Below are positions 6,289 through 36,910 of a DNA stretch of 64,000 bases, in pieces. The position numbers and the translations under genes are program-made. Where the stretch lies: contig JAGWVU010000013.1 in assembly GCA_018970725.1 (NCBI GenBank), positions 1-64,000 on the forward strand, read 5' to 3'. The number at the start of each line of letters is the position of its first letter. The first letter of the stretch is position 1. The notes beneath the pieces are model-generated. The model saw only the letters and a list, made by a program, of their open reading frames with translations. It made no database searches and was not told where the DNA came from. Source of the stretch: Verrucomicrobiota bacterium. GTDB taxonomy: Bacteria; Verrucomicrobiota; Verrucomicrobiia; Verrucomicrobiales; DEV007.

Positions 6289-6486
6289 GGCCAATGATCG
6301 ATCTCCGAGATCCGGGAACCTTCTCCCGATACGTTTGCGAAAAACAACCGGGCATTTTCCTTTGAAATAGCCGGACGTTTTTTGTTCAAAACAGACGCCT
6401 CACAAGCACGCGACGCAACTCCGATCCTTTCTTCGAATTCGAGCAAACCCGAGCGGCATCGCAACGAAATGGAGGGGGCAGCCCTT

Positions 6487-7503
6487 TCAATTCCCGTCCA
6501 GCAGATTGCCCAGCCCCCCGAGAATCGAACCTTCCTCCATCGTCGCCCCCCCCCCGGTTCGTTGCGGGGCCGCTCGGAAAATGCGGTCCGCCAACCGCGA
6601 GAAAGGCAGGCTCTGCAGCCAGACGGTGCCGTGCCCTTGCAGGGTCGCGAGGAAAAGCCCTTCGCCCCCGAAAACCATCGACTTGAGATTGCCGGCCCGC
6701 TCGATGTCATAGTCCACTCCCGACTCGAACGCGACGATGCATCCGGTGTCGACCCGAAGCCGCTCCCCGCGCAACTCCCTGCGGATGACGGTGCCCCCGG
6801 CATGGAGGAACGCGAGTCCGTCCCCGGTGAGGCGCTGCAGGATGAATCCCTCCCCGCCGAATAATCCGGCTCCCAAGCGGCGCTGGAACGCGATGCTGAT
6901 CCGAGTGCCCTTGGCCGCGCAGAGGAAGGAATCCTTCTGGCAGATGATCTCGCCGCGGAGTTGCGCCATGTCCACCGGGACGATCTTGCCCGGGTAGGGA
7001 GCCGCGAAGGCGACCCGGCGCTTTGCGCTTCCCGTGTTGGTGAAGTGCGTCATGAAGATGGACTCTCCGGTGAGCATCCGCTTGCCCACGTTGAGCAATT
7101 TCCCCATCAACCCCTCCGAGGGACTGGACCCGTCTCCCATCCGGGTCTCGAACACGATCCCGTCCTCCATGTAGTTCATGGCCCCGGCCTCCGCGACGAC
7201 CGTTTCCGCCGGATCGAGCTCGACCTCGACGAGTTGCAAATCATCTCCGAAGATCTCGTAATCCACCTCGTGGCAATTCTTCCGGGAGGGGGTCGGAGCG
7301 GTGGGCCACTCCGGCAGGGGCGGCGGACCGCCCGCCGCGAAAATTTGCGGGCAGACTTCGCCCGCCGGGGCCCAGCCCGCCATTCCTTGCCGCCAGACAA
7401 AGGTCTGCCGGGAGATGACCCCGCTCGCGGCCAGTTGCTGCAACTGTTCTTCGGAGGCCGTCTCCACATTCGCTCCCGTCCCGGTGTAGTGCCACTCGTG
7501 CAT
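6487..7503 (-). CDS. GYF_2 domain fused to AIM24/TIGR00266 domain
   Basis: A 338-residue protein. The N-terminal 50 residues form a GYF_2-type domain (EWHYTG start, [17 protein letters not shown]). The rest is the AIM24/TIGR00266 beta-rich domain: [22 protein letters not shown] near 105-125, [25 protein letters not shown], and a final part resembling the trypsin-like or mitochondrial biogenesis AIM24 fold. The function is unknown in bacteria. There is no signal peptide, so it is probably cytosolic. GYF_2 often sits on membrane or adaptor proteins as a protein-binding module. It starts at ATG 7503, and the intergenic region up to 7587 is shared with a divergent gene. Confidence 0.88.
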
Positions 7504-7586
7504 CGCGCGACTATTTCCGCGCCCGCCGCCCCGGTCAACCTTCCGGACCTGCTTTCCTCTTGCGTCCCGCTCCCGCCCGAAGTGAA

Positions 7587-9386
7587 ATGATCCAGCCCTG
7601 CCGCCTCTCCTCCCCCATGACTCCCGCGCTCCGCCCGCTGCCCCTCCTCGCCCTCCTCTTCGCGTTCACCCCCTGTCCTGCCGAAACCCCGCCGACCGGG
7701 GCCCGGAAGGTTTGGCAACCCGTGCTGGATGCCGCGGCGGTGCCCCATCCCAACCCCGTGACCTCCCTCAACCCGTTCGTCGCCTACACCCATCTGGGCA
7801 CGGATTTCGGGTTTCACGGACCGGCGGAACGGAATCTGGTCTGGTACGGCGGACGCATCTCGGTCGATCTCACAGGGATCGACGCTTGGGCCGGCATGTG
7901 GCATTCCCTGGCCGGACTGGCCGCTTCCGCCGGAGAATCGCTCGACTTCACCGCTCCCTACCCCGCCCCGGTCCGCGCGTCCGCCCAGCCGAGAATCACC
8001 TCGATCGACCTCGAAGCCAAGGGCGCCGGAACCCTGAAACTGGAAATCAAGGACGCCGCCCAGACCCTGCTGTGGCAACATGCCTTCACGCTGCACCCGC
8101 CCGACACCGACCCACCCGCCGTCGCGGTGAACCCCGGGGCGCTGCGCCGCGCCAAGTTCCTCCTCTGGACCGCCGAACCAGGAGCGAGGATTTCCCTCGC
8201 CAAGGTGGCTCTGGGACTCGAGCCCGGTGTCGCCGACATCGAGACCTTCGCCCTCAGGGCCTCTTTCGCCAAGCTGGCCCGGTGTTACTCCCAAGGCACC
8301 GGTTTGCTCCGGGACCGGGCGCACGTCCCGCACGGCGCCTTCGACAACGTCCCCGCCTCCGGCCTCTTCGCCCTCGCCACCGCCGCCGTAAGCACGCCGG
8401 AGATCGCCCTGGTCCAACCGGAGGACGCGCGCCGCATCCTCAACGAGGTGGCCCGCGCTTTGGAAAACATCCGGAAAGCCGGCGGACTCCTCCCCCATTT
8501 CGTCCGGGAAAGCGATGGCCGGCATGTGATCCACCCCGGCACTGAATACAGCACGATCGATACCGCGATCGCTTACCAATCCCTCCTCCTGGCGGCGGAA
8601 ATCCTCGGGGACGCCCCCCTCCGCTCCCGGATCCTCGAATCCATCCGGGCGATCGACTTCCACCCGCTCACGCTCGAGGACGGCACGATCAGCCACGGCC
8701 TGCGCGCGGATGGCACCACGGTGATTCCCTATTCCTGGCGCGATTGGGGCGGGGAAAGCGCTCTCGTCATCCTCCTCCGCGGCATGGCCGAGGCTTCGCC
8801 CCCCACTCCCGTCATGGCCCGCACCGGCCGCCCCTGGCAAGGCACCGGATTCATCGCGGAAATCCAGAGCCTGTTTCATCCGGACTTCGATTCCCCGAGA
8901 CCGGACGCCGTCAGCGGGATCGATTGGTTGCGAGCCCGGCGGAACCATCTGCAGGAACAGAAAGGCTACTGGCCGCGACATCTGCCGGACTCCCCGGCCG
9001 CCCGGCTGGCCCTTTACGGACTCTCCGCCAGCGAATCGGTCTCCGGCACCAGTTACCTCGTGAACGGGGTTGATTTGTCCAATCAGGACAGTCTGCAACC
9101 CCACTACATGCTCATGGCCGGGGCCATCGATCCCGATCCCGCCTCGGTCCGCACCAGCCTCCAGCACCTCGCGGATCAAGGCTGGCTGCCCCCCTGGGGC
9201 CTCGTGGAAACATTCACCGCCGACGGCCGCCACTACTTGCCCATGATCGGCGCCCTCAACGCGGGATTCGAGGCCCTCGGGGCCTACCATTTTCTGACCG
9301 GCTCCAAAAGGCTGCCCAATGCCATCCATCAGGCGAGCCGCTCCCTCCCCGAAGTCCGGACCGCGATGCGGGCTTTCTACCCCTGA
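7587..9386 (+). CDS. Predicted secreted protein, alpha-barrel (glucoamylase-like) fold suspected
   Basis: About 599 residues from ATG 7587. A second ATG at 7617 gives a cleaner signal peptide ([17 protein letters not shown]) and is an equal alternative. After the leader comes a beta-rich region (about 40-210), then a mainly helical region whose segments, such as [40 protein letters not shown]-like stretches and [16 protein letters not shown], resemble the repeating helices of (alpha/alpha)6 glycoside-hydrolase barrels. I cannot assign a family or name catalytic acids, so the enzymatic role is a guess. The gene ends 14 bp before the convergent recN. Export seems likely; function is unknown. 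Confidence 0.7.
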
Positions 9387-9400
9387 GCCTTTTGTCGGCT

Positions 9401-11059
9401 TCAGCCGCCGGCCAGCATCGCCTCCGCCAAACCACGCGCTTTCTCCCCACCACCACCCAGCATCCTCGTCACTTCGGCCACCCGGCGCTCCCCCCTGACT
9501 TCGACCAACGAAGAACGCGTTTTCCCGTCCTCGACCGTTTTCCGAACCACGTAATGGTGATGCGCCAGCGAAGCAACCTGGGGCATGTGGGTGATCGCCA
9601 CCACCTGATGCTTCTCTCCCAGGGCCGCCATCTTGCGGCCCACCGCATGCGCGATCTCCCCGCCCACGTTAGCGTCGATCTCGTCGAAGACCATCAGCGG
9701 AATGCTGTCCTCATCCGCCAACGCGTTTTTCACCGCCAACATCACCCGGGACATCTCCCCGCTCGAGGCAATCACCCGCAACGGTTTGAACGGTTGCCCG
9801 GGGTTCGGCGCGAATTGGAAGTCGATCTGCTCCATCCCCGATGGCCCGGGCCCTTCCAAATACCGGAGCGCAATCTCAAACTTCGATTGCCGGAACCCGA
9901 GATCCTCCAGATGCCCGGACACTTCCCCCGCCAACTCGGGAGCCGCTTGCAGCCGGGCCGCACTTAGCACGCGCCCCCTCTCCCGAAGCTCCTGAAGCCG
10001 CTCCGCCGCCGTCTGTTCCAGACGGTGCAGCTCTTCCCCACGCCCCTCGATCGCGTTCAACTTCCGCTCCGCACGTTCCCCAAACGCGATCACGCTCTCC
10101 ACCGATCCCCCGTATTTGCGCTTCAACGTCTCGATCAGGTCAATCCTCGCCTCCAATCGCACCACTTCCGCCGGATTGATTTCCAACGAGCCGACATACC
10201 GCCGCAACCCGCGCTCTAGCTCCTCCAACTCCACCTGGGCGGTCTCGAATCCCGTCACCAAACCGCTGGTAGCCTCGTCGAAACGCTCCAACTCACGGAT
10301 CGACCGGTGCATCTCGCGCAACTGCCCCAACACGGCCATCGGCCCTTGGGAGAGCCGGCGCGAAACCTCGCCCGCGGCATCGATCAACTTCTGGCTGTTC
10401 GACGCCACCGCGTATTGCATCTCCAACTCGGGCTCCTCGTTCGGCTTGAGGTCCGCCTTCCGGATCTCCTCGACTTGAAAACGAAGCAGCCCCAACTCCT
10501 GCTCCGTCGCCCGTTCCGCATCGCGCAACGCCTCGAAATTCTGCGCCGCCTCACGCCACTCCTGATAGGCGGCCCGATAGGCCTTCACCATCCCGTCCGT
10601 CCCCGCGTAGGCATCCAGCATCGTCAACTGCCGCTCCTGGGACATCAGCGATTGGTGATCATGCGGCCCATGGAGGTCGACCAAAACCTCCCCCAGCTCC
10701 TTCAAGACCTGCAGCGTGGCCGGTGCGCAGTTGATGAACTGCTTGTTCTTGCCCGTGATGCTGAACACCCGCTTGAGCACGATGCCGTCGTCCTCGCAAG
10801 GCTCCAATCCCGACCGAATCAGGATCTCGTTCACCTCGTCCCGGTTCGGCAACTCAAAGACCGCCTCCACCGTGCAATGGGTCTCCCCGGCCCGGACCAG
10901 CTCCCGCTCCGCCCGGTCCCCGAGAATCAATTTCAGCGCCCCCACGATCATCGACTTGCCCGCGCCGGTCTCCCCGGTGACTGTGACCAGTCTCGGACCA
11001 AGTTCCCAAGTGAGGTCATCGACCAAAGCGAGATTCTTGATTTTCAGGACGGCGAGCAT
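9401..11059 (-). CDS. recN: DNA repair protein RecN
   Basis: A 552-residue SMC-like ATPase for double-strand-break repair, at the usual family length. It begins MLAVLKIKNLALVDDL at ATG 11059; the open frame continues far upstream but without family similarity. Walker A is GETGAGKS near residue 30. Long coiled-coil arms occupy about 150-370, and the Walker B/D-loop VFDEIDANVGGEIAHAVG near 460 is followed by the H-loop region QVVAITHMPQVASLA. RecN acts with RecA in the cytoplasm. It is convergent with the secreted protein on its left and divergent from the metallo-hydrolase on its right, with a 48-bp gap. No LexA box was recognised there. Confidence 0.96.
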   Translation of the reverse strand: MLAVLKIKNLALVDDLTWELGPRLVTVTGETGAGKSMIVGALKLILGDRAERELVRAGETHCTVEAVFELPNRDEVNEILIRSGLEPCEDDGIVLKRVFSITGKNKQFINCAPATLQVLKELGEVLVDLHGPHDHQSLMSQERQLTMLDAYAGTDGMVKAYRAAYQEWREAAQNFEALRDAERATEQELGLLRFQVEEIRKADLKPNEEPELEMQYAVASNSQKLIDAAGEVSRRLSQGPMAVLGQLREMHRSIRELERFDEATSGLVTGFETAQVELEELERGLRRYVGSLEINPAEVVRLEARIDLIETLKRKYGGSVESVIAFGERAERKLNAIEGRGEELHRLEQTAAERLQELRERGRVLSAARLQAAPELAGEVSGHLEDLGFRQSKFEIALRYLEGPGPSGMEQIDFQFAPNPGQPFKPLRVIASSGEMSRVMLAVKNALADEDSIPLMVFDEIDANVGGEIAHAVGRKMAALGEKHQVVAITHMPQVASLAHHHYVVRKTVEDGKTRSSLVEVRGERRVAEVTRMLGGGGEKARGLAEAMLAGG

Positions 11060-11107
11060 TGAGTCGGGGAACAGGTTAGAGTATGGACGCTCCCCAGCTT
11101 TTTTCAA

Positions 11108-11902
11108 ATGCCCAGCTCTTCCTCCCTTTCGATTACCTTCCTCGGCACCGGCACTTCCCTGGGCATTCCCGTGGTCGGCTGCTCGTGCGCCGTCTGCACG
11201 TCCGGTGATCCCCGCAACAAACGCTCCCGCTCCTCCATCCACGTTCAATCCCCGGAAACCTCGTTCGTGATCGATACCGGACCGGATTTCCGCTCGCAAT
11301 GTCTCCGGGAAAACATCCGCAAGGTGGAGGCCGCGCTCTTCACCCATCCTCACACCGACCATATTATGGGATTCGACGACCTCCGCCCGTTCTGCTTCGG
11401 GGAACACGCCACCATGCCGATCTACGGGAGCCCGGAATGCCTCACCCAACTCCAACAGGTCTTCGGTTTCGCTTTCGACCCCGCCAGATGGAATCCCGTC
11501 TACCTCAAAGCCGTGGCGCGACCCGTCACCGGTCCCTTCGAGATCGCGGATGTCCGCCTCACCCCTCTCGAAGTCACCCATGGCACGGTCAGGACCACCG
11601 GCTATCTCATGGCCAACAACCAGCGCCCCCTCGCCGCTTACCTCCCGGATTGCAAACATATCCCCGGTGAAACTCTCGATCTCATGAAGGGCGTCGATAC
11701 CCTCATCATCGACTGCCTCCGCCTCCAACCCCACTGGACCCACATGAATCTGGAGGAAGCTTTGGCTGTGCGGGACGCCGTGCATCCCCGTCAAACCTGG
11801 CTGACCCATCTCTCCGACCGACTCGACCACGCCACCCTGCAAGCCGGGCTGGCAGAGGACGTGCAGGTCGCTTACGATGGCTTGAAATTGCTCCTCGCGT
11901 AA
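11108..11902 (+). CDS. MBL-fold metallo-hydrolase, PhnP-like
   Basis: A 264-residue metallo-beta-lactamase-fold hydrolase. LGTGTSLGIPVVGC at the N-terminus leads into a cysteine cluster (GCSCAVC, about residues 20-26) like the extra zinc site of PhnP. The metal-binding motif HPHTDHIMGFDDLR lies near 79-92. A further histidine (VTHGTV) and an aspartate (LPDCKHIPGE) follow. PhnP cleaves cyclic ribose phosphates in phosphonate breakdown. Many homologues outside phn operons have unknown substrates, and no phn gene is nearby, so only the fold and metal-dependent phosphodiesterase chemistry are inferred. It lies 13 bp upstream of the TIGR03790 gene, which suggests one transcript. Confidence 0.9.
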   Translation: MPSSSSLSITFLGTGTSLGIPVVGCSCAVCTSGDPRNKRSRSSIHVQSPETSFVIDTGPDFRSQCLRENIRKVEAALFTHPHTDHIMGFDDLRPFCFGEHATMPIYGSPECLTQLQQVFGFAFDPARWNPVYLKAVARPVTGPFEIADVRLTPLEVTHGTVRTTGYLMANNQRPLAAYLPDCKHIPGETLDLMKGVDTLIIDCLRLQPHWTHMNLEEALAVRDAVHPRQTWLTHLSDRLDHATLQAGLAEDVQVAYDGLKLLLA

Positions 11903-11915
11903 GCCCCGGCCCACC

Positions 11916-13517
11916 ATGTCCGCCCTCCCCAGGCTCCTCCTCCCCGTCCTGACAAGCCTCGCCGCGGCCGCCCTTTCTCCTGCCCAAAATCCTTCTTCTC
12001 CCTCCACTCCGCCCCTCACCAAGGCCTCGCTCTACTCCCCCACCACCCTCGTCGTCTTCAACCGCTCGGTGCCCGATTCCGAATCCCTCGCCCGTTACTA
12101 CATTGCGGCCCGCCAGATCCCGGCCCGCAATCTCATCCCCCTCGATTGCCCCAGCGAGGAAACCATCACCCGGGCGCGCTACCTCCAAACCATCGCGGAA
12201 CCCCTCCGCCAAAAATTCCTCGACGAGGGCTGGTGGATGCCCGAACGCGATCCCGCCACCGGCCGCCAATCCCTCCGCAGCGAGTTCCATATCCTCGCCC
12301 TGATGCATGGCCTGCCCTTGCGCATCGCCGATGATTCCGACCGCCCGCCCGACTCCGAACCCTTGTCAGGAACCGGTGCCAGCCTCGATTCGGAACTGGC
12401 CATCCTCGGACGCCCCTCCCAACCCAAGGGCCCCGTGCCCAATCCCTACCATCGCAGCGACACTCCCTTCCACACCGCCAAAATGCCCATGCAATTGGTC
12501 GGCCGGATCGATGCCCCGTCCCTCAACCGCTGCCGGGCCATGATCGATGAAGCCATCCTCGCCGAAACCCAGGGCCTCTGGGGCCAGGCCTACATCGACC
12601 TCGACGAACGCCAACCCATCGGAAACGATTGGCTCCGCGCCGCCGCCGATGCCTGGCGCAAACTGGGCATTCCCGTCACCGTTAATCTCCAGCCGGACTC
12701 CTTCCCCGGGAATTACCCGATGCGCGACCCCATCCTCTATTTCGGCTGGCATGAACCCCAGGTGAACGGTCCTTTCCTCAACCCGGCCTTCAAATTCCAA
12801 CCGGGCGCCGTCGCCTGCCACATCCACTCCAAAAACGCCGCCACCCTCCGCTCCACCACCCAAAACTGGGCCGGCCCCCTCCTCGCCCGCGGCGCCGCCG
12901 CGGTTCTCGGGACGATCGATGAACCTTACCTCCAACTCAGCCACGATGTCGGCCTCTTTTCCGACCGCCTCTCCCGCGGCTTCACCTTCATCGAAAGCGC
13001 TTTCGCCTCCACCGACTCCCTCTCCTGGATGACCGTCGCCGTCGGCGATCCCCTCTACCGCCCCTTCCCCGGTCCTGACCAACCCATCGATCCCGCGAAA
13101 TTCAAAGAGGACCACCGCTCCCCTTACAAAATCCTCCGCCTCGCCTACGAAAGCTGGGGCGAAGGCAAACCCCTCCCGGAACGTGACTCCAGCCTCTTTT
13201 ACAAGCTGGAGATGGCCAGCGCCAAAACCGAGACCCCCGAACTTCTCGAACACCTCGCCCTCGCCGCCCTCGCCCGGGGCGATCGCGAAGACGCCAGAAT
13301 CCAGTTCCTCAGGGGCAGGAACGCCTACCCGGATCCCAGGGACAAACTCCGGATGGACCTCCACATCGGCTGCATGGAGTGGTCCGCCAAAGAACGACTC
13401 GCCGCCCTCCAAACCTTCCGCAACGCCGCCACCGAGTTCGCGGACCTCAGTGAATCCAAGGCCGCCAGGGAATTGATGGAGAAAGTCGCCAAACCCGACG
13501 CCGCTGCCTCCAAGTAA
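11916..13517 (+). CDS. TIGR03790 family protein (exosortase-associated)
   Basis: A 533-residue exported protein with a signal peptide (residues 1 to about 24, ending in AALSPAQ). It has the family features as I remember them: LVVFNRSVPDSESLARYY, ARQIPARNLIPLDCP and ALMHGLPLRI in the first 140 residues, then LYFGWHEPQVNGPF and RGAAAVLGTIDEPYL. The C-terminal 100 residues look TPR-like (ALAALARGDREDARIQFLRGRN). TIGR03790 occurs only in bacteria that have an exosortase and PEP-CTERM sorting system. Its role is unknown. Neither exosortase nor a PEP-CTERM protein is visible in this window. The gene follows the metallo-hydrolase by 13 bp. Confidence 0.88.
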   Translation: MSALPRLLLPVLTSLAAAALSPAQNPSSPSTPPLTKASLYSPTTLVVFNRSVPDSESLARYYIAARQIPARNLIPLDCPSEETITRARYLQTIAEPLRQKFLDEGWWMPERDPATGRQSLRSEFHILALMHGLPLRIADDSDRPPDSEPLSGTGASLDSELAILGRPSQPKGPVPNPYHRSDTPFHTAKMPMQLVGRIDAPSLNRCRAMIDEAILAETQGLWGQAYIDLDERQPIGNDWLRAAADAWRKLGIPVTVNLQPDSFPGNYPMRDPILYFGWHEPQVNGPFLNPAFKFQPGAVACHIHSKNAATLRSTTQNWAGPLLARGAAAVLGTIDEPYLQLSHDVGLFSDRLSRGFTFIESAFASTDSLSWMTVAVGDPLYRPFPGPDQPIDPAKFKEDHRSPYKILRLAYESWGEGKPLPERDSSLFYKLEMASAKTETPELLEHLALAALARGDREDARIQFLRGRNAYPDPRDKLRMDLHIGCMEWSAKERLAALQTFRNAATEFADLSESKAARELMEKVAKPDAAASK

Positions 13518-29989: not shown

Positions 29990-30046
29990 GCGGGAAGCGG
30001 CTTGACTGCGTTTCCATGCTGTCGTAAACGGCTGGGAAGAAAAGCC

Positions 30047-31609
30047 GTGCCGCACCTTAGACATCCCGGGCGATTTGGTCGAACCGCCGCCGGCGCGGTG
30101 CTCACGGCGTTGTGTCTGGGCTGGAGCGGGGCGCAGGTTCCGGGGCAGGGACTGTTGGAGACCGGGGCGCAAGAGGCCCATCCCTTCGCCGACTACGACC
30201 GGGCGCTGGCGAAGGCCCAGGTCGGGGACCTCGACGGGGCGATCGCGGACTTCGACCGGTTGATCGTCTTGAAATCATGGGACGGCCTGGCCTACGCCTT
30301 GCGCGGGGCGACCCGGATGCGGCGCGGGGATCTGGCCGGGGCCATGAGCGACTGCGACCGGGCTGTGGAACTGGATCCGGATCTTTCGACGGCGTATCGC
30401 TACCGGGCCGCGGGGTGGTTGGCGCAAGGAGACTATGCCAAGGCGATCCTCGACAGCGGGAAAGCGGTGGACTTGGATCCGAAAGACGCGGTGGCGTATG
30501 CGATCCGGAGCGGAGCCCGGTTGGCGACGGGGGAAAAGGAGGGGGCCTTGGCGGACGGAGAAGCGGCGGTGGCGGCGGCCCCGAAGTTGGCGATCGGGTA
30601 TCATCACCGGGGCAATGCGCAGCAGGCCTCGGGGAATCTGGATGCGGCCCTGTCGGACCTGACGCGGGCGATGGAGCTGGACCGGACCGATGCGGTGGCT
30701 TGCGCCAACCGGGGAGCGGTGTGGTTGGCGAAAGGGGATTGGCAAGCGGCGGTGCGGGACTCCAGCCGTGCCTTGGAATTGAATCCGGGGATCGCGTCCG
30801 CCTACCGGAACCGGGCGGAAGCGCGGGTCAACCTTGGGGATGAGGCGGGCTCGGCGGCGGATGTCGGGCAAGCTTTGGCGCTGGGTTTGCGGGATGACTG
30901 GCTGGTGGGGCGCGGGGTTCAGGGGTTGCTGGAACGGGGCGGATCCAAGTTCATGAACGGAGAAACGGAGGGCGCCTTGGCGGACTTGGGGGAAGCGCTG
31001 CGGCTCGACGAGGGGAATCTTTCCGCGTTGACCTTGCGCGGGTTCGTGCGCTTCACGGCGGGGGATCTGGACGGGGCGTTCGCGGACAGCGACCGCGCCG
31101 CCGCGCTGAACGCGGAAGCGGCGGACGCGCTCCAGGTGCGGGGGAGCGTCCACCATGCGCGCCGGAAGTGGGCGGAGGCGGCGGCGGATTTCCGCAAGGC
31201 GGGCGCTTTGTCCGGGGCGGTGCGGGACTCCGCGCGATTTTTCCTGTGGTCGAGCGTGGCGCGGGGAGGGGACCGCGCGGGGGCGGACCAGGAATTGACC
31301 GCCTCGCTGGAAGGACGCGCGGAGTCGGATTGGACGCTCACTCTGGCCCATTTTCTTTTGGGGCGGCAGACCGAGCCGGAGTTGTTGGAAGCGGCGCGGA
31401 GGTTGAAACCGGGCGAGGATCCCGAAGAAGGACGGGCCCGGCAATGTCAGGCCCGCTACTACGCCGGGGTGGTCCGGTTGTTGGCCGGGGACCGGGCGGG
31501 AGCGCGGGAGTCGTTCGGGGCGTGCGAGGCCACGGGCTTGACCTTGGCCACGGAATATCAGTTCGCGAAGGCGGAACTGGCCGGAGCGGGAATCGATCCG
31601 AAAAATTGA
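30047..31609 (+). CDS. Exported tetratricopeptide-repeat protein
   Basis: About 520 residues with at least ten TPR units. Repeats such as GDLDGAIADFDRLIVL, GDLAGAMSDCDRAVELDPDLSTAYRYRA, GDYAKAILDSGKAVDLDPKDAVAY and GNLDAALSDLTRAMELD recur about every 34 residues. A signal peptide (TAAGAVLTALCLGWSGAQ) precedes them. The start is placed at GTG 30047, with an AG-rich stretch (GGGAAGAAAAG) just upstream; an in-frame TTG at 30002 would lengthen it. TPR solenoids bind other proteins, so a periplasmic scaffold role is likely. Partners are unknown. The next gene starts 44 bp downstream. Confidence 0.88.
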   Translation: MPHLRHPGRFGRTAAGAVLTALCLGWSGAQVPGQGLLETGAQEAHPFADYDRALAKAQVGDLDGAIADFDRLIVLKSWDGLAYALRGATRMRRGDLAGAMSDCDRAVELDPDLSTAYRYRAAGWLAQGDYAKAILDSGKAVDLDPKDAVAYAIRSGARLATGEKEGALADGEAAVAAAPKLAIGYHHRGNAQQASGNLDAALSDLTRAMELDRTDAVACANRGAVWLAKGDWQAAVRDSSRALELNPGIASAYRNRAEARVNLGDEAGSAADVGQALALGLRDDWLVGRGVQGLLERGGSKFMNGETEGALADLGEALRLDEGNLSALTLRGFVRFTAGDLDGAFADSDRAAALNAEAADALQVRGSVHHARRKWAEAAADFRKAGALSGAVRDSARFFLWSSVARGGDRAGADQELTASLEGRAESDWTLTLAHFLLGRQTEPELLEAARRLKPGEDPEEGRARQCQARYYAGVVRLLAGDRAGARESFGACEATGLTLATEYQFAKAELAGAGIDPKN

Positions 31610-31653
31610 ATTCTTTTTGGTGCGATGTGTGGATTTTGTGCGTCTTGCTCTGG

Positions 31654-32175
31654 ATGCAATTTGTGACCTCCTCCATCGTTCGTTTCCTGCGTCTCCAGAT
31701 CACCGCACCGGGCCGTTCCCGGTCCTTGTGGCTGGGCGCGGGGTTGTCCCTGGCCCTGGCCTGCGCCTCCTGCCAACAGATGTCCCCGAACGTCTACGAG
31801 AGCCGGGACGCGGGAGTGCCCATGCAAACCTTTGCCGGGGTGGTGCAATCCGCGCGACCGGTGACGGTGCAGAATGAGGGGAATCTGGGAACGATTCTCG
31901 GGGCTGCGGCCGGTGGTGTCAGCGGAGCGCAGATCGGGGGTGGCACCGGCACCCACATCATCGGCGGGGTGGCCGGCGCAGCGATCGGGGCCATGGCCGG
32001 CCGGGGGCTTGAGAAGGGAATCAGCAAGAAGAGCGGGATGGAATACGTTGTCCGGACGGAAGACGGGCAACTGCATACGATCGTCCAAGGGCCGGAACTT
32101 CCGCTGGTGGCGGGGCAGAAGGTCTTTGTCCAGCTTTGGGGCAGCGGCCGTTCACGGGTCATCCCGGCCCAGTGA
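31654..32175 (+). CDS. Glycine-zipper (SlyB-like) outer-membrane lipoprotein
   Basis: A 173-residue protein. The N-terminal hydrophobic leader ends LACASCQQM, with a cysteine suited to lipidation. The central GTILGAAAGGVSGAQIGGG and GGVAGAAIGAMAGRGLE form the double glycine zipper typical of SlyB/PcpY-type outer-membrane lipoproteins. The C-terminal 60 residues (MEYVVRTEDGQLHTIVQG, AGQKVFVQLWGSGRSRVI) match the family's small beta domain. Such proteins contribute to envelope integrity. Start ATG 31654 is best; an in-frame GTG lies at 31624. Confidence 0.88.
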   Translation: MQFVTSSIVRFLRLQITAPGRSRSLWLGAGLSLALACASCQQMSPNVYESRDAGVPMQTFAGVVQSARPVTVQNEGNLGTILGAAAGGVSGAQIGGGTGTHIIGGVAGAAIGAMAGRGLEKGISKKSGMEYVVRTEDGQLHTIVQGPELPLVAGQKVFVQLWGSGRSRVIPAQ

Positions 32176-32243: not shown

Positions 32244-33731
32244 TCAGAGGCCCTCCAGGTCGAGGGCGTTGACGGCCTCGCGGATCGCTGCGGGCGCGGC
32301 GTCGGTTTCGTTCAGCTTGATGCCGGTGGAGGTGATGAAATCGCTGATGGCCTTGTAATACTGGTTGAGGCTTTCGATCTCGTCGACCCGGGCTTGGAAG
32401 GCGGCTTGTTCGCGGATCATGAGGCCGAGGAGATCGGTGGCGCCGAGTTCAAAGCGATCCTGCTCCACTTTTTGGAGTTGCAGGGCGAGATCCGTGTTTT
32501 GCCGGGCGCGCTGGAATTGGTCGAGCGCGAGGGTGACCGCGGAGAAGGCATTGTGCAGTTCGGCGGAGATGCGGTCCATGGCGAACCGGTATTCGTTCTG
32601 GGTCTGCTCAGTTTTGGCCGCGTTTTCCTCTTGCTTGCCCTTGGCCTCGTTTCGTTGGAGGGGGACCCGGAACTGGAGCCCGGTCTTCAGTTCGAAGTCG
32701 CCCGTGTCCTTGTAACGGAAGGCCCCGGTTCCCTGGTTGGCACCGACAAAGGTATCGAGTTTGGGGAGGGCTTTGTTCCGGAAGAGACGGGCATCGACCC
32801 CGAGTTTCTGGAGTTCGATTTCGAGGTAAGCGAGTTCGGGGCGATGTTCGAGGGCGAAAGCGATGGCCCCGGTGGTGACGTCGTCCGGGAGGGGGAAAGG
32901 TTCGGGGAGCCGGTCCGGAGCAAGGGCGCGTCCGGCGATGATGGGTTCGCCGAGATCGTTGCGGTGGAAGAGGGAGAGAGCGATGGAGGCGGCTTCGAAG
33001 GCGCGTTGGGCCTTGAGGAGGGCGAGTTCCCGGCTGATCACCATCTGGTTGTTTTCGACCTCGATGACCGGGGCGACCAATCCCCTTTCGATCTGGGTCT
33101 TGACGGCTTTGGCCCTGTCTTGCGCGATGCGGAGGATTTCCTCTGCCGCAGCGAGTTTGCGAACTTCGGCATGCCAATTGTAATAGGCGAACATGGCCGC
33201 CTTGGTGAAGTCGAGTTGCTGTTTGCGGATTTTGGGGTCCGCCTGTTCCTTTTCGAGCTTGGCCTTGAGGAGGGTGGCGCGGCGTTCGTCGATGGCGCGG
33301 TTTTGGAGGAGGGGCAGTTTGATCCCGACCTCGGGTTGGCCGCCGGCATTGGTGCGGCGTTCATAATAGTAATCGGGCAGGAATCCCTCGGTGTAACGGT
33401 AGCCGCCGTAAATGGTGGAACCCCAGAGGCCGGTGAACTGTTCGAACCCGGCTTCGACAGTCGTGGCCTCGTAGAAACCCTGGGTGTTGTCGAAGATATC
33501 GACGAAAGTTTGGAAGTCGAAGATGCCGCGGGCGCTCCGGAGCTTGCCTTGGGCGACATCGCGTTCGATGAGGGCGGCGAGGTAGGGTGGATACTGTGAG
33601 TAAACGCCGTCGACGAGCTGGGTCAGGGTGAGTTTGGCCGGCGGGTCGGGAGGCTGCCGGGCGATGAGGAACATCGGGCACATCACGGCCGGGAGGACGG
33701 TCAGGATGAGGCGCAGGTCCCGGGATTGCAT
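32244..33731 (-). CDS. TolC-family outer membrane efflux protein
   Basis: A 495-residue protein with a signal peptide (LRLILTVLPAVMCPMFLIA), then a repeated helix-strand pattern: KLTLTQLVDGVYSQYPPYLAALIERDVAQGKL at the front and a second half-repeat from about residue 300 (ELAYLEIELQKLGVDARLFRNKALPKLDTFVGANQG). Long helices such as AMDRISAELHNAFSAVTLALDQFQRARQNTDLALQ are as in TolC. It would trimerise into the outer-membrane duct. It is the third gene of the minus-strand operon after the ABC and HlyD-type genes. The in-frame extension upstream of ATG 33731 lacks a signal. Confidence 0.92.
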   Translation of the reverse strand: MQSRDLRLILTVLPAVMCPMFLIARQPPDPPAKLTLTQLVDGVYSQYPPYLAALIERDVAQGKLRSARGIFDFQTFVDIFDNTQGFYEATTVEAGFEQFTGLWGSTIYGGYRYTEGFLPDYYYERRTNAGGQPEVGIKLPLLQNRAIDERRATLLKAKLEKEQADPKIRKQQLDFTKAAMFAYYNWHAEVRKLAAAEEILRIAQDRAKAVKTQIERGLVAPVIEVENNQMVISRELALLKAQRAFEAASIALSLFHRNDLGEPIIAGRALAPDRLPEPFPLPDDVTTGAIAFALEHRPELAYLEIELQKLGVDARLFRNKALPKLDTFVGANQGTGAFRYKDTGDFELKTGLQFRVPLQRNEAKGKQEENAAKTEQTQNEYRFAMDRISAELHNAFSAVTLALDQFQRARQNTDLALQLQKVEQDRFELGATDLLGLMIREQAAFQARVDEIESLNQYYKAISDFITSTGIKLNETDAAPAAIREAVNALDLEGL

Positions 33732-33813
33732 GGGTTTCGTGGTCGTGTGAGCCCACCCTGTTCCGCTAAACCCTGACAAGGTGAAAATCAAGAATTACGA
33801 AAGGATTCCGGGG

Positions 33814-35139
33814 TTATTTGCTCTTCACCTGTTTGGCGATCGGGTTGTCCTCCGTGATGACGGGAGGGAATCCGTTGATCTGCCGCCACATTTCGAACCA
33901 GAGCGGGACGCGTTCAAGGAGGATCCAGCCCTGGGTGAGCACTCCCTGACGCATCACCGGGGCTTCGGGCCAGGTGACGATCTTCTTTTTCCCGTCGAAC
34001 CCGGTGATCTCATCCGGGACCGGTTCCACGAGGACGCGGAACATGCCTTTCCCGTTGTCCGCCTTGTCCACGAAGATGACCTCTCCGCCGAAGGTGCCGA
34101 TGGCGACGCTGGGCCAACCGGCGAACTGGATGGCGGGCCACCCCTCGAACTGGAGACGGGCGATGCTGCCCTTGCGGGTGATCCGGCCGTCGGGACCGAC
34201 GAGGCGTTCCCGGACGAGCGGCATGTCGTTGCCATCGATCCACATTTCCACCACGAGATTTTTCGTGTCCGGGACGATGGTGCAGAGAGGGGAACCGGAC
34301 TTGAGGAAGGTTCCCTCGTTGACTTGCATCCTGACCACGACTCCATCCCGCGGGGCTTCGACCACAAGCCGCCCGATCTGGTTGACCTTGCTGCGGAGTT
34401 CGTTGGCTTCCTTATCGACTTTCTTGAGGTCGCTCCGCGCGGATTCCATGGAAGCGTTGAGGCTTTCGAGGGCCGCGTTGTTGTCGAGTTCGGTCTTGAT
34501 GAGGGACGCCTCGGCCTTGAGAACTTCGGCGGTTTCCTTGTCCCGGTTCATCGTGGCCACCTCGAAATCCCGTTGGGAGGCGAGGCCCCGGGAGTCCTCG
34601 AAAAGCGACTTGACCCGGTCATATTGCAATTCGGCGGCCTTCTGGGTGAACTGGGCGGCGTCGAGCTGTTTCTGCGCCATCGCGATGGCCTGGGGCATGG
34701 CCTTCTCGACCTGCGCGACCTGCCCTTTGATGCGTTCAAGACGGGCGGCGGCGGCGGCGCGTTGTTCCTCCAGATCCGACAATTGGCGGTTCAGGTTGGT
34801 CAACAATTCGGGGTCGTTGTCCGCCAGCCGGCAGAGCAGTTGCCCCTGCTTCACCGCCTGTCCTTCGGAGACGTGGACCTCAAGGACGCGACCGTCGAGC
34901 GGCGCCTCCACGATCACGGAGCGTTCCAACGGGTTGAAGGCGATGACCTTGCCGGAAGCGGAAACGAACTGCTGCCACGGAAGGACGGCCAGGCCGACGA
35001 GGACCAGACAAAAGGCCATCACCAGCAAGCGGTGGACCCAGCGCAGCCCCGCCGGGAGGAGGGTCCGTTCTTTGCAGGAAAGCCCGGCGAGATGATCCAG
35101 CATCGGCATTGCCGGGTCGGATTCGGAAGCTTGTGCCAT
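33814..35139 (-). CDS. HlyD-family periplasmic adaptor protein
   Basis: A 441-residue inner-membrane-anchored adaptor. The single transmembrane segment (LVMAFCLVLVGLAVLPW, about residues 38-56) is followed by a biotinyl-lipoyl half motif (VIVEAPLDGRVLEVHVSEGQAVKQGQLL, about 75-105), an alpha-helical hairpin (about 110-260) and the second lipoyl half (LVVEAPRDGVVVRMQVNEGTFLKSG). It would bridge the ABC protein and the TolC-like duct. It starts 43 bp after the ABC gene and ends 82 bp before the TolC-like gene, in the same operon. Membrane-fusion proteins of type I secretion and multidrug efflux share this fold, so the cargo is not determined. Confidence 0.93.
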   Translation of the reverse strand: MAQASESDPAMPMLDHLAGLSCKERTLLPAGLRWVHRLLVMAFCLVLVGLAVLPWQQFVSASGKVIAFNPLERSVIVEAPLDGRVLEVHVSEGQAVKQGQLLCRLADNDPELLTNLNRQLSDLEEQRAAAAARLERIKGQVAQVEKAMPQAIAMAQKQLDAAQFTQKAAELQYDRVKSLFEDSRGLASQRDFEVATMNRDKETAEVLKAEASLIKTELDNNAALESLNASMESARSDLKKVDKEANELRSKVNQIGRLVVEAPRDGVVVRMQVNEGTFLKSGSPLCTIVPDTKNLVVEMWIDGNDMPLVRERLVGPDGRITRKGSIARLQFEGWPAIQFAGWPSVAIGTFGGEVIFVDKADNGKGMFRVLVEPVPDEITGFDGKKKIVTWPEAPVMRQGVLTQGWILLERVPLWFEMWRQINGFPPVITEDNPIAKQVKSK

Positions 35140-35182
35140 GAGGAGGATGGGGGAATGGGGTGGAAACTGGGGAAGGAATGGG

Positions 35183-36910
35183 TCAGCCCTTGGCGCCCTC
35201 CGCGTCCGGGGGGACTCCGGGAGGTTCGGGAAGGCGGTAAACGCGGTCGCAACGCTCGAGCAGGTTGCGGTCGCGGGTCGCCAACAACAGGGTCCAGTCC
35301 CGCTCCGGACCGAACAGGGTTTGGTAGACCCGGCTCGATCTCTCCGGATCGAGGCCGTCGAGTACCTTGTCGATCATGAGCAATTTCGGCTTGCCCACGA
35401 TGGCCCGGGCGAGGCACACCTTGACCTTCTGGGAATCCGAGAGGGGGCGTCCGCCGGCCAGCAACTGGGTATGCAAGCCGTCCGGCAGTTCAAGAAACCG
35501 GGCGAGAAGACCGACTCGGTCGAGAGCGGAGCAGACCTCATCGAGGGTGATTTCCTGGCGGTGGAGGCGCACGTTCTCGAGGATGCTGCCGGAGAAAATC
35601 GCGACTTCATTCATCAGCACGGCGCGGGAGCGGAACTCGACGAGCTGCCAGTGCCGGATGTCCATCGCATCCACGATGATGACGCCGTCGTTCGCGTCCC
35701 GCAGGCCGTAAGCCATCTCCAGCAGGGTTCCCGCGCCGGCTCCGATCGGTCCGGTGACCGCGACGCGTTCCCCGGGGGAAGCGCCGAAATCGATGTCTTG
35801 GAAAAGCGGGCGCGGAGCGTTCTCGTAGCGGAAGGTGACGCTGCGGAATTCGACGTCGAACGGTTTGCCCGAAGATTTGACCGGCTCGCCATCGGCGCGT
35901 TCCACGGGGAGTTCGACGAGTTTGCCGAGTTTGTCGACGGCGGCCATGGCGTCATACCAGATCTCGAGATGCTTGCCGAGGCTGACCATGGAATAGACCA
36001 CCGTGCCGACGATGAGTTCGCTGGCCACGAGCTGGCCGAGGGTGAGTTGGCCGCTGAGGACGAGGATGCCCCCGACGGCGAGCAAGGCGGCGGCGGCGAA
36101 GGCTTCGAGCAGGAGGAGCGCGATGATCTGGCGGATGAGGACGGAATAATGCGCCTTCCGGGAGGTGAGATAATGGTTCACCAGGGAATCGGCGCGGTGT
36201 AGCGAGTAGGCCGGGCCGCCCGGTCCCTTGAACATGGTGGGGAACATGACAATCTGCTCGAACCATCCGGCCAGCGCGTGCTTGGCGTAGGATTCCTCGA
36301 TGCTGGAATCGACCCCGCGGCGGCCGAGGAGAAAGACGATCATCGCGAGGAACGACACGAGGACGAAGTTGAAGGCGAGGAGGAAGGGGTGATAGAAGGC
36401 GAGCACGAGGAGGCCGATGCCGGCGCTGAGGACCACGTTCACGGCGTCGAGCAGGATGGTGGCGCAACTTTTCTGGACGGTGGTGACATCGAGAAACCGG
36501 TTCACCAGTTCAGGCGTGTTGGCGGTTTCAAGGGCCTCGCGGCGGATCCGCGGGAGGCGGTAAGCCATGTCGGCCGCGAGCCGGACGAAGATGCGCTGCT
36601 GGATCAGTTCGGCGACGAAATGTTGCGCGGCGCTAATCAACGAGGAGAGCGCGAGGAAGATGAGGAGGGCGAAACTGAAGATCAGAAGCGTCTGGACGTA
36701 GACTTTCTGCTGGCCGCCGAACGCGATGTTCTGCACCACGGAATCGACCGCCAGAGGGGTGGCGAGGTAGAGGAGGCCGGTCAGGACCGAGAAAAAGACG
36801 ATGAGGAGGACATCGGGTTTTTCGGCTTGAAGCAGCGCGAAGAGGCGTTGACGGGGCGCGGGCCCGGTGTGTGGGTGACCGTGGTGGGCGGACGAAGTTG
36901 ATTCAGCCAT
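35183..36910 (-). CDS. ABC exporter with degenerate (pseudo-)ATPase domain
   Basis: A 575-residue protein built as a type I exporter half-transporter. Six predicted membrane segments (about 30-300) precede a nucleotide-binding domain (about 350-570). Every catalytic motif is altered. Walker A is GPIGAGAGT near 390, with Ala for the lysine and Gly for the Ser/Thr. The Q-loop glutamine is Asn (LMNEV near 434), the signature is LSDSQ instead of LSGGQ near 492, the Walker B glutamate is Lys (LLMIDK near 512), and the H-loop has Arg/Asp (ATRDR near 542). The overall NBD fold is kept, so the gene is under selection as protein. There is no peptidase domain. It heads the operon with HlyD and TolC genes. 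It may need an active ABC partner encoded elsewhere or work without ATP hydrolysis. Confidence 0.92.
   Translation of the reverse strand: MAESTSSAHHGHPHTGPAPRQRLFALLQAEKPDVLLIVFFSVLTGLLYLATPLAVDSVVQNIAFGGQQKVYVQTLLIFSFALLIFLALSSLISAAQHFVAELIQQRIFVRLAADMAYRLPRIRREALETANTPELVNRFLDVTTVQKSCATILLDAVNVVLSAGIGLLVLAFYHPFLLAFNFVLVSFLAMIVFLLGRRGVDSSIEESYAKHALAGWFEQIVMFPTMFKGPGGPAYSLHRADSLVNHYLTSRKAHYSVLIRQIIALLLLEAFAAAALLAVGGILVLSGQLTLGQLVASELIVGTVVYSMVSLGKHLEIWYDAMAAVDKLGKLVELPVERADGEPVKSSGKPFDVEFRSVTFRYENAPRPLFQDIDFGASPGERVAVTGPIGAGAGTLLEMAYGLRDANDGVIIVDAMDIRHWQLVEFRSRAVLMNEVAIFSGSILENVRLHRQEITLDEVCSALDRVGLLARFLELPDGLHTQLLAGGRPLSDSQKVKVCLARAIVGKPKLLMIDKVLDGLDPERSSRVYQTLFGPERDWTLLLATRDRNLLERCDRVYRLPEPPGVPPDAEGAKG

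Follow-up and report, generated by a model that had tools for sequence, protein, structure and literature searches.

The window analysed here, a stretch of 64,000 nucleotides from a Verrucomicrobiota bacterium, holds an operon of three genes on the minus strand. The first of them (35183..36910) encodes an ABC half-exporter of 575 aa, referred to as pseudo-ABC, whose reading frame is intact and which matches both ABC_tran (E 5e-14) and ABC_membrane (E 8e-10) of Pfam. It comprises a transmembrane domain (TMD; residues 20-333, 35912..36853), supported by a predicted model and by the invariant residues of a family alignment, and a nucleotide-binding-like domain (NBD; residues 345-562, 35225..35878), where Pfam, the alignment and a structural match indicate that the fold is kept while the catalytic residues are gone. 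Downstream lie the genes of a HlyD-type periplasmic adaptor of 441 aa (33814..35139; Pfam HlyD_3, E 5e-16; dN/dS 0.06-0.09) and a TolC-type outer-membrane factor (OEP; 32244..33791; Pfam OEP, E 3e-31; dN/dS 0.13), the latter with a longest ORF of 515 aa that begins at a TTG and a true start that is uncertain. The HlyD and TolC partners that the initial annotation had ascribed to this operon are both present according to Pfam, the former inside the interval that it covered (33814-36910) and the latter just outside. Genes for a TPR protein and a glycine-zipper protein (30002-32175) run convergent to the operon, with no link to it seen.

The motif residues of pseudo-ABC were called from a reading of the DNA, followed by an alignment with five other ABC exporters encoded in this genome. 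These five keep their motifs, whereas in pseudo-ABC all of the named catalytic residues are replaced. Its Walker A motif reads GPIGAGAGT (35726..35752), with Ala393 in the place of Lys and Gly394 in the place of Ser; the Q-loop Gln is Asn434 (35609..35611), within VLMNE; the signature has degenerated to LSDSQ (residues 490-494, 35429..35443); the Walker B Glu is Lys515 (35366..35368), within LLMIDK; and the H-loop His is Arg546 (35273..35275), within ATRD. The replacements described by the initial annotation in an intact frame are thus confirmed on both DNA and alignment. Its broader statement, that every catalytic motif is lost, holds for the named residues but not for the motifs in full, as the P-loop glycines G387, G390 and G392, the Walker B Asp514 and the Leu, Ser and Gln of the signature are still present.

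The top NCBIfam match of this protein is LssB (TIGR03375), at 189.6 bits against a cut-off of 693.1, and a C39-type N-terminal domain is absent from it. Relatives of 740 aa carry an N-terminal extension of ~170 residues ahead of the membrane domain (e.g., L036, 9879-10433). This extension has no match in Pfam or the PDB, and its identification as a C39 peptidase was dropped on that ground.

Between the window protein and those of two congeners, the identity is 89-92% and dN/dS ~0.06 (Nei-Gojobori), with values within the genus of 0.04-0.05 for the TMD and 0.05-0.06 for the NBD. Judged by these substitution ratios, both domains are under strong purifying selection and the gene is not decaying. 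The reading frame is broken in a few assemblies (L032, L112, L234, and L091), by either real mutation or sequencing error.

Pseudo-ABC belongs to a family that a profile of ten relatives detected in 63 of 289 genomes from the order of the window, and also in distant members of the phylum. The same operon was found in sphingomonads and Bacteroidota by tblastn against plasmids. Among Alphaproteobacteria, 2 of 385 genomes sampled from the whole class carry it, as do 49 of 368 genomes from the taxonomic family of one of these two positives. The relatives that could be aligned, 127 from Verrucomicrobiota, Alphaproteobacteria, and Bacteroidota, come mostly from two lineages, with Bacteroidota sampled through plasmids. 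No member of this alignment has the H-loop His (0/127), none combines an intact Walker A, signature and Walker B, and the Walker A Lys is retained in just seven (three Bacteroidota, three far PVC members, and one sphingomonad). Sphingomonad members have otherwise lost this Lys, and most of them the Walker B Asp as well. The losses vary by lineage, since the Walker B Glu survives in 48 of the 127 members and one signature glycine in some; GSGKS-like P-loops are found in a few. To judge from the alignment, the loss of the catalytic set is not a matter of chance but a trait of the family maintained in three phyla, because it is common to every relative with an alignable ATPase-like domain, even though the residues lost are not always the same. 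A rapid maximum-likelihood tree (44 rows) gives full support to the split between the family and the window genome's exporters, although the branches are long and the rooting is by midpoint only. Many members are automatically annotated as 'ABC transporter ATP-binding protein', a misleading name, and no description of the family was found in the open-licence literature on inactive ABC exporters in tripartite systems.

Conservation in this family is strongest in the membrane domain. Eight residues (P52, G166, H174, K210, Q261, G292, A296, and E298) are identical in all 127 members, and are followed by Q293, N137 and Y319 (126/127) and K147 (125/127). At most of these twelve positions, identical in at least 125 members, the ordinary exporters encoded in the window genome have other residues, although G292 is usual among them and P52, N137, G166, H174 and A296 occur in some. 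The mean identity of the TMD exceeds that of the NBD in all family comparisons, for example within Verrucomicrobiota (0.65 vs 0.54) and between Verrucomicrobiota and Bacteroidota (0.32 vs 0.22). This is the opposite of the ordinary exporters (0.23 for the TMD vs 0.46 for the NBD; six distinct proteins, one counted twice), with most of the members and the comparison set drawn from few lineages. The predicted model of pseudo-ABC, of moderate confidence (pLDDT 68), has six long membrane helices (residues 31-63, 68-121, 133-173, 175-222, 232-285, and 291-333). On this model, E298 and H174 would be placed towards the periplasmic side, Q261 in the middle of the membrane, and K147, K210 and Y319 towards the cytoplasmic side. 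A structure search with the model returned ABC exporters throughout, the best being the HlyB/HlyD complex 8dck (Z 25), with a large whole-chain rmsd of 12.8; the modelled NBD alone matches that of TAP1 (Z 24, rmsd 2.5 over 219 residues).

The genetic organization is also conserved. HlyD adjoins pseudo-ABC in 65 of 67 loci on the Verrucomicrobiota side and in all 49 sphingomonad loci, and an OEP gene is present in 59 of the 67 and 47 of the 49, respectively, with several of the absences corresponding to contig ends; in G580 and G697, it was not found within the fetched flank. The trio occurs on plasmids as a self-contained unit, one instance being SARO_RS19820-19810 on pNL2 of Novosphingobium aromaticivorans DSM 12444. 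No recurrent gene for a secreted substrate was noticed across the operon neighborhoods. In the plasmid pTK1 of Sphingobium sp. TKS (L138), an IS3 transposase gene (6445-7808) occupies the place where HlyD and TolC are expected, while the sister locus L132 retains both.

Taken with the family-wide loss of motifs and the purifying selection, this conserved HlyD-OEP operon gives good support to part of the interpretation in the initial annotation, in that a pseudo-ATPase half-transporter would belong to a tripartite duct. The model proposed here, which is held with moderate confidence, is that of a trans-envelope conduit in which a catalytically dead ABC half-exporter would sit in the inner membrane and be joined through the HlyD adaptor to the TolC-type factor in the outer membrane. 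Pseudo-ABC would work as a homodimer, hydrolysing no ATP in its own sites, and its membrane domain would be either a gated pore or a secondary transporter coupled to ions, as in SbmA, whose membrane fold is the same. The nucleotide-binding-like domain would be kept for structure, docking, or sensing.

Other readings start from the same observations. Recent inactivation or an assembly error might be suspected from the missing catalytic residues and from the frames broken in some relatives (L032, L112, and L234), but dN/dS is ~0.06, the operon is intact and the catalytic set is lost in 127 relatives from three phyla. The initial annotation had itself named homologues with intact motifs, relaxed selection and sequencing errors as the signs to look for against its view, and none of them emerged from these data; relaxed selection and sequencing error are rejected on dN/dS and on conservation across the whole family, which leaves this explanation a practically negligible probability. 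Pairing with an intact half-exporter encoded elsewhere, with ATP hydrolysed together with that partner, would agree with the one-sided degeneracy that is common among known exporters (PMC7756269), and some six intact ABC exporters are encoded in the window genome. Within the fetched flanks, however, another full-length half-exporter was found in only 1 of 126 loci, and a separate NBD in three, so that a linked intact partner is not the rule and was rejected as such. Moreover, the operon occurs alone on plasmids. Pseudo-ABC also lacks the Walker A Lys and a signature glycine, residues needed by each of the two composite sites, and a hybrid would therefore be without one whole site and have the second one damaged. 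The pairing with a second, intact ABC protein suggested earlier is thus not supported, and the heterodimer is regarded as improbable.

A nucleotide-gated conduit, in which ATP or another ligand would be bound without hydrolysis and the pore opened by binding alone, agrees with the P-loop glycines and the Walker B Asp that persist in the window protein, with the purifying selection on its NBD, and with the GSGKS-like P-loops of a few members. Nucleotide binding may survive in some members, since those of Bacteroidota and the far PVC ones keep the Walker A Lys, a point that counts against the main model. The losses of this Lys and, in most cases, of the Walker B Asp among sphingomonads argue against nucleotide gating, as they make binding in the usual mode unlikely family-wide, and this reading is considered an unlikely but serious candidate. 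Finally, the protein could move no substrate at all, and rather assemble the HlyD-TolC pair and recruit a cytosolic enzyme or another transporter in a regulatory or scaffolding role. The retention of a whole domain despite dead catalysis speaks for this role, as do the inorganic-carbon enzymes and pumps encoded nearby in Verrucomicrobiota. Nevertheless, the conserved residues are found chiefly in the membrane domain and include polar and charged ones, as a transport path would have, so this role is given a low probability, below that of the heterodimer.

The proposed homodimeric conduit differs from the systems to which its parts are related. It resembles type I secretion systems of the HlyB/LssB kind in the six-helix ABC exporter fold (ABC_membrane plus ABC_tran) and in the operon with HlyD and a TolC-type protein, but is unlike them in the loss of the ATPase motifs, in the absence from the window protein of the C39 or C39-like N-terminal domain that some subfamilies have, in the low LssB score (190 vs 693 bits), and in TMD invariants of its own. 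SbmA imports peptides and lacks a nucleotide-binding domain, whereas pseudo-ABC keeps an NBD-like domain and is accompanied by HlyD and TolC. What pseudo-ABC would share with SbmA/BacA-like peptide transporters (SLiPT) is a membrane domain of the ABC exporter type that is not powered by an ATPase of its own; that of SbmA is driven by the proton gradient (PMC13316013). In TAP, TM287/288, TmrAB, and CFTR, consensus catalytic residues have likewise been lost from a conserved domain (PMC7756269), but these proteins keep one working site, while pseudo-ABC alone can build no canonical site. The type I secretion-related module with SecA_DEAD, reported from Planctomycetes, Verrucomicrobia, and others, also contains HlyD-type and sometimes OEP-type proteins in its locus, and no ABC transporter was found there (PMC4452313). 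The component proposed for its inner membrane is M50-like, with a SecA_DEAD ATPase, in contrast with the dead ABC protein of the window operon, and identity between the two was rejected against the description of that module.

The inner-membrane transporter of tripartite pumps and of type I secretion systems is described as energised (PMC8277102). If the ATPase has truly been lost with the architecture kept, an ABC exporter scaffold can be given another source of power or become a conduit, and the pseudo-ABC family would be the natural counterpart of SbmA inside a tripartite system.

The gene neighborhoods offer a possible route to the function. On the Verrucomicrobiota side, DabA lies within 10 kb of the operon in 9 of 67 loci (G122, G069, G135, G137, G142, G200, G215, G211, and G580), and DabB is found near it with no DabA in range in three others (G119, G159, and G218). 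These operon islands further contain SulP, beta-carbonic anhydrase, a CobW GTPase, and LysR regulators. In the sample of the order, eight DabA genes lie within 10 kb of the operon against ~0.24 expected (Poisson p ~2e-10), and DabA is encoded in 50 of the 63 genomes with the family vs 27 of the 226 without it (Fisher p ~2e-24), statistics that in both cases ignore common ancestry. The linkage is concentrated in one genus. The several DabA types and gene orders involved suggest more than one event. DabA also directly precedes the operon on a Sphingobium plasmid, ending 44 bp ahead of it. For DAB proteins, a role as energy-coupled carbonic anhydrases through which bicarbonate accumulates has been proposed (PMC8438413), and no open-licence paper joining DabA/DabB with HlyD was found.

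Due to this recurrence beside genes for DabA/DabB, SulP, carbonic anhydrase, and PEP carboxylase, the conduit might, in Verrucomicrobiota, serve the handling of inorganic carbon (HCO3-/CO2) or of linked ions, a weaker proposal than the conduit itself. Its most specific form, in which an ABC exporter turned ATP-independent anion or ion conduit would, with HlyD and TolC, join the cytoplasm to the outside and work with DAB and SulP in acquiring or balancing inorganic carbon, is speculative and on balance doubtful. A carbon role dedicated across the whole family is not supported in sphingomonads, where no DabA was seen near the chromosomal loci within the fetched flanks, and where carbon-gene linkage is missing in 48 of 49 loci, the remaining one having carbonic anhydrase and SulP. 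In the window genome, DabA is on another contig, and carbon-gene neighbors are absent from the window. The conduit could therefore act without such neighbors. The two closest relatives beyond the genus of the window have PEP carboxylase immediately upstream of their operon (L030, 423-3221; L031, 5188-7968); as a general partner this enzyme is a weak candidate, being adjacent only in these two loci and near-universal in these genomes. The company of DabA/DabB, SulP, and carbonic anhydrase is still a testable lead, and would give bacterial carbon acquisition an envelope component not suspected before.

Individual islands have further features. In L145 (G069), genes for DabA, beta-carbonic anhydrase, and a CobW-type GTPase (7492-12732) stand in a row upstream of the operon on the same strand. 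In L154 (G580) and L153 (G697), pseudo-ABC is immediately preceded by genes for an ammonium transporter and PII, which in G580 follow DabA and DabB. About ten Verrucomicrobiota loci (L036, L037, L144, L146, and L236-L241) have a gene for a PAS-type sensor close to the operon.
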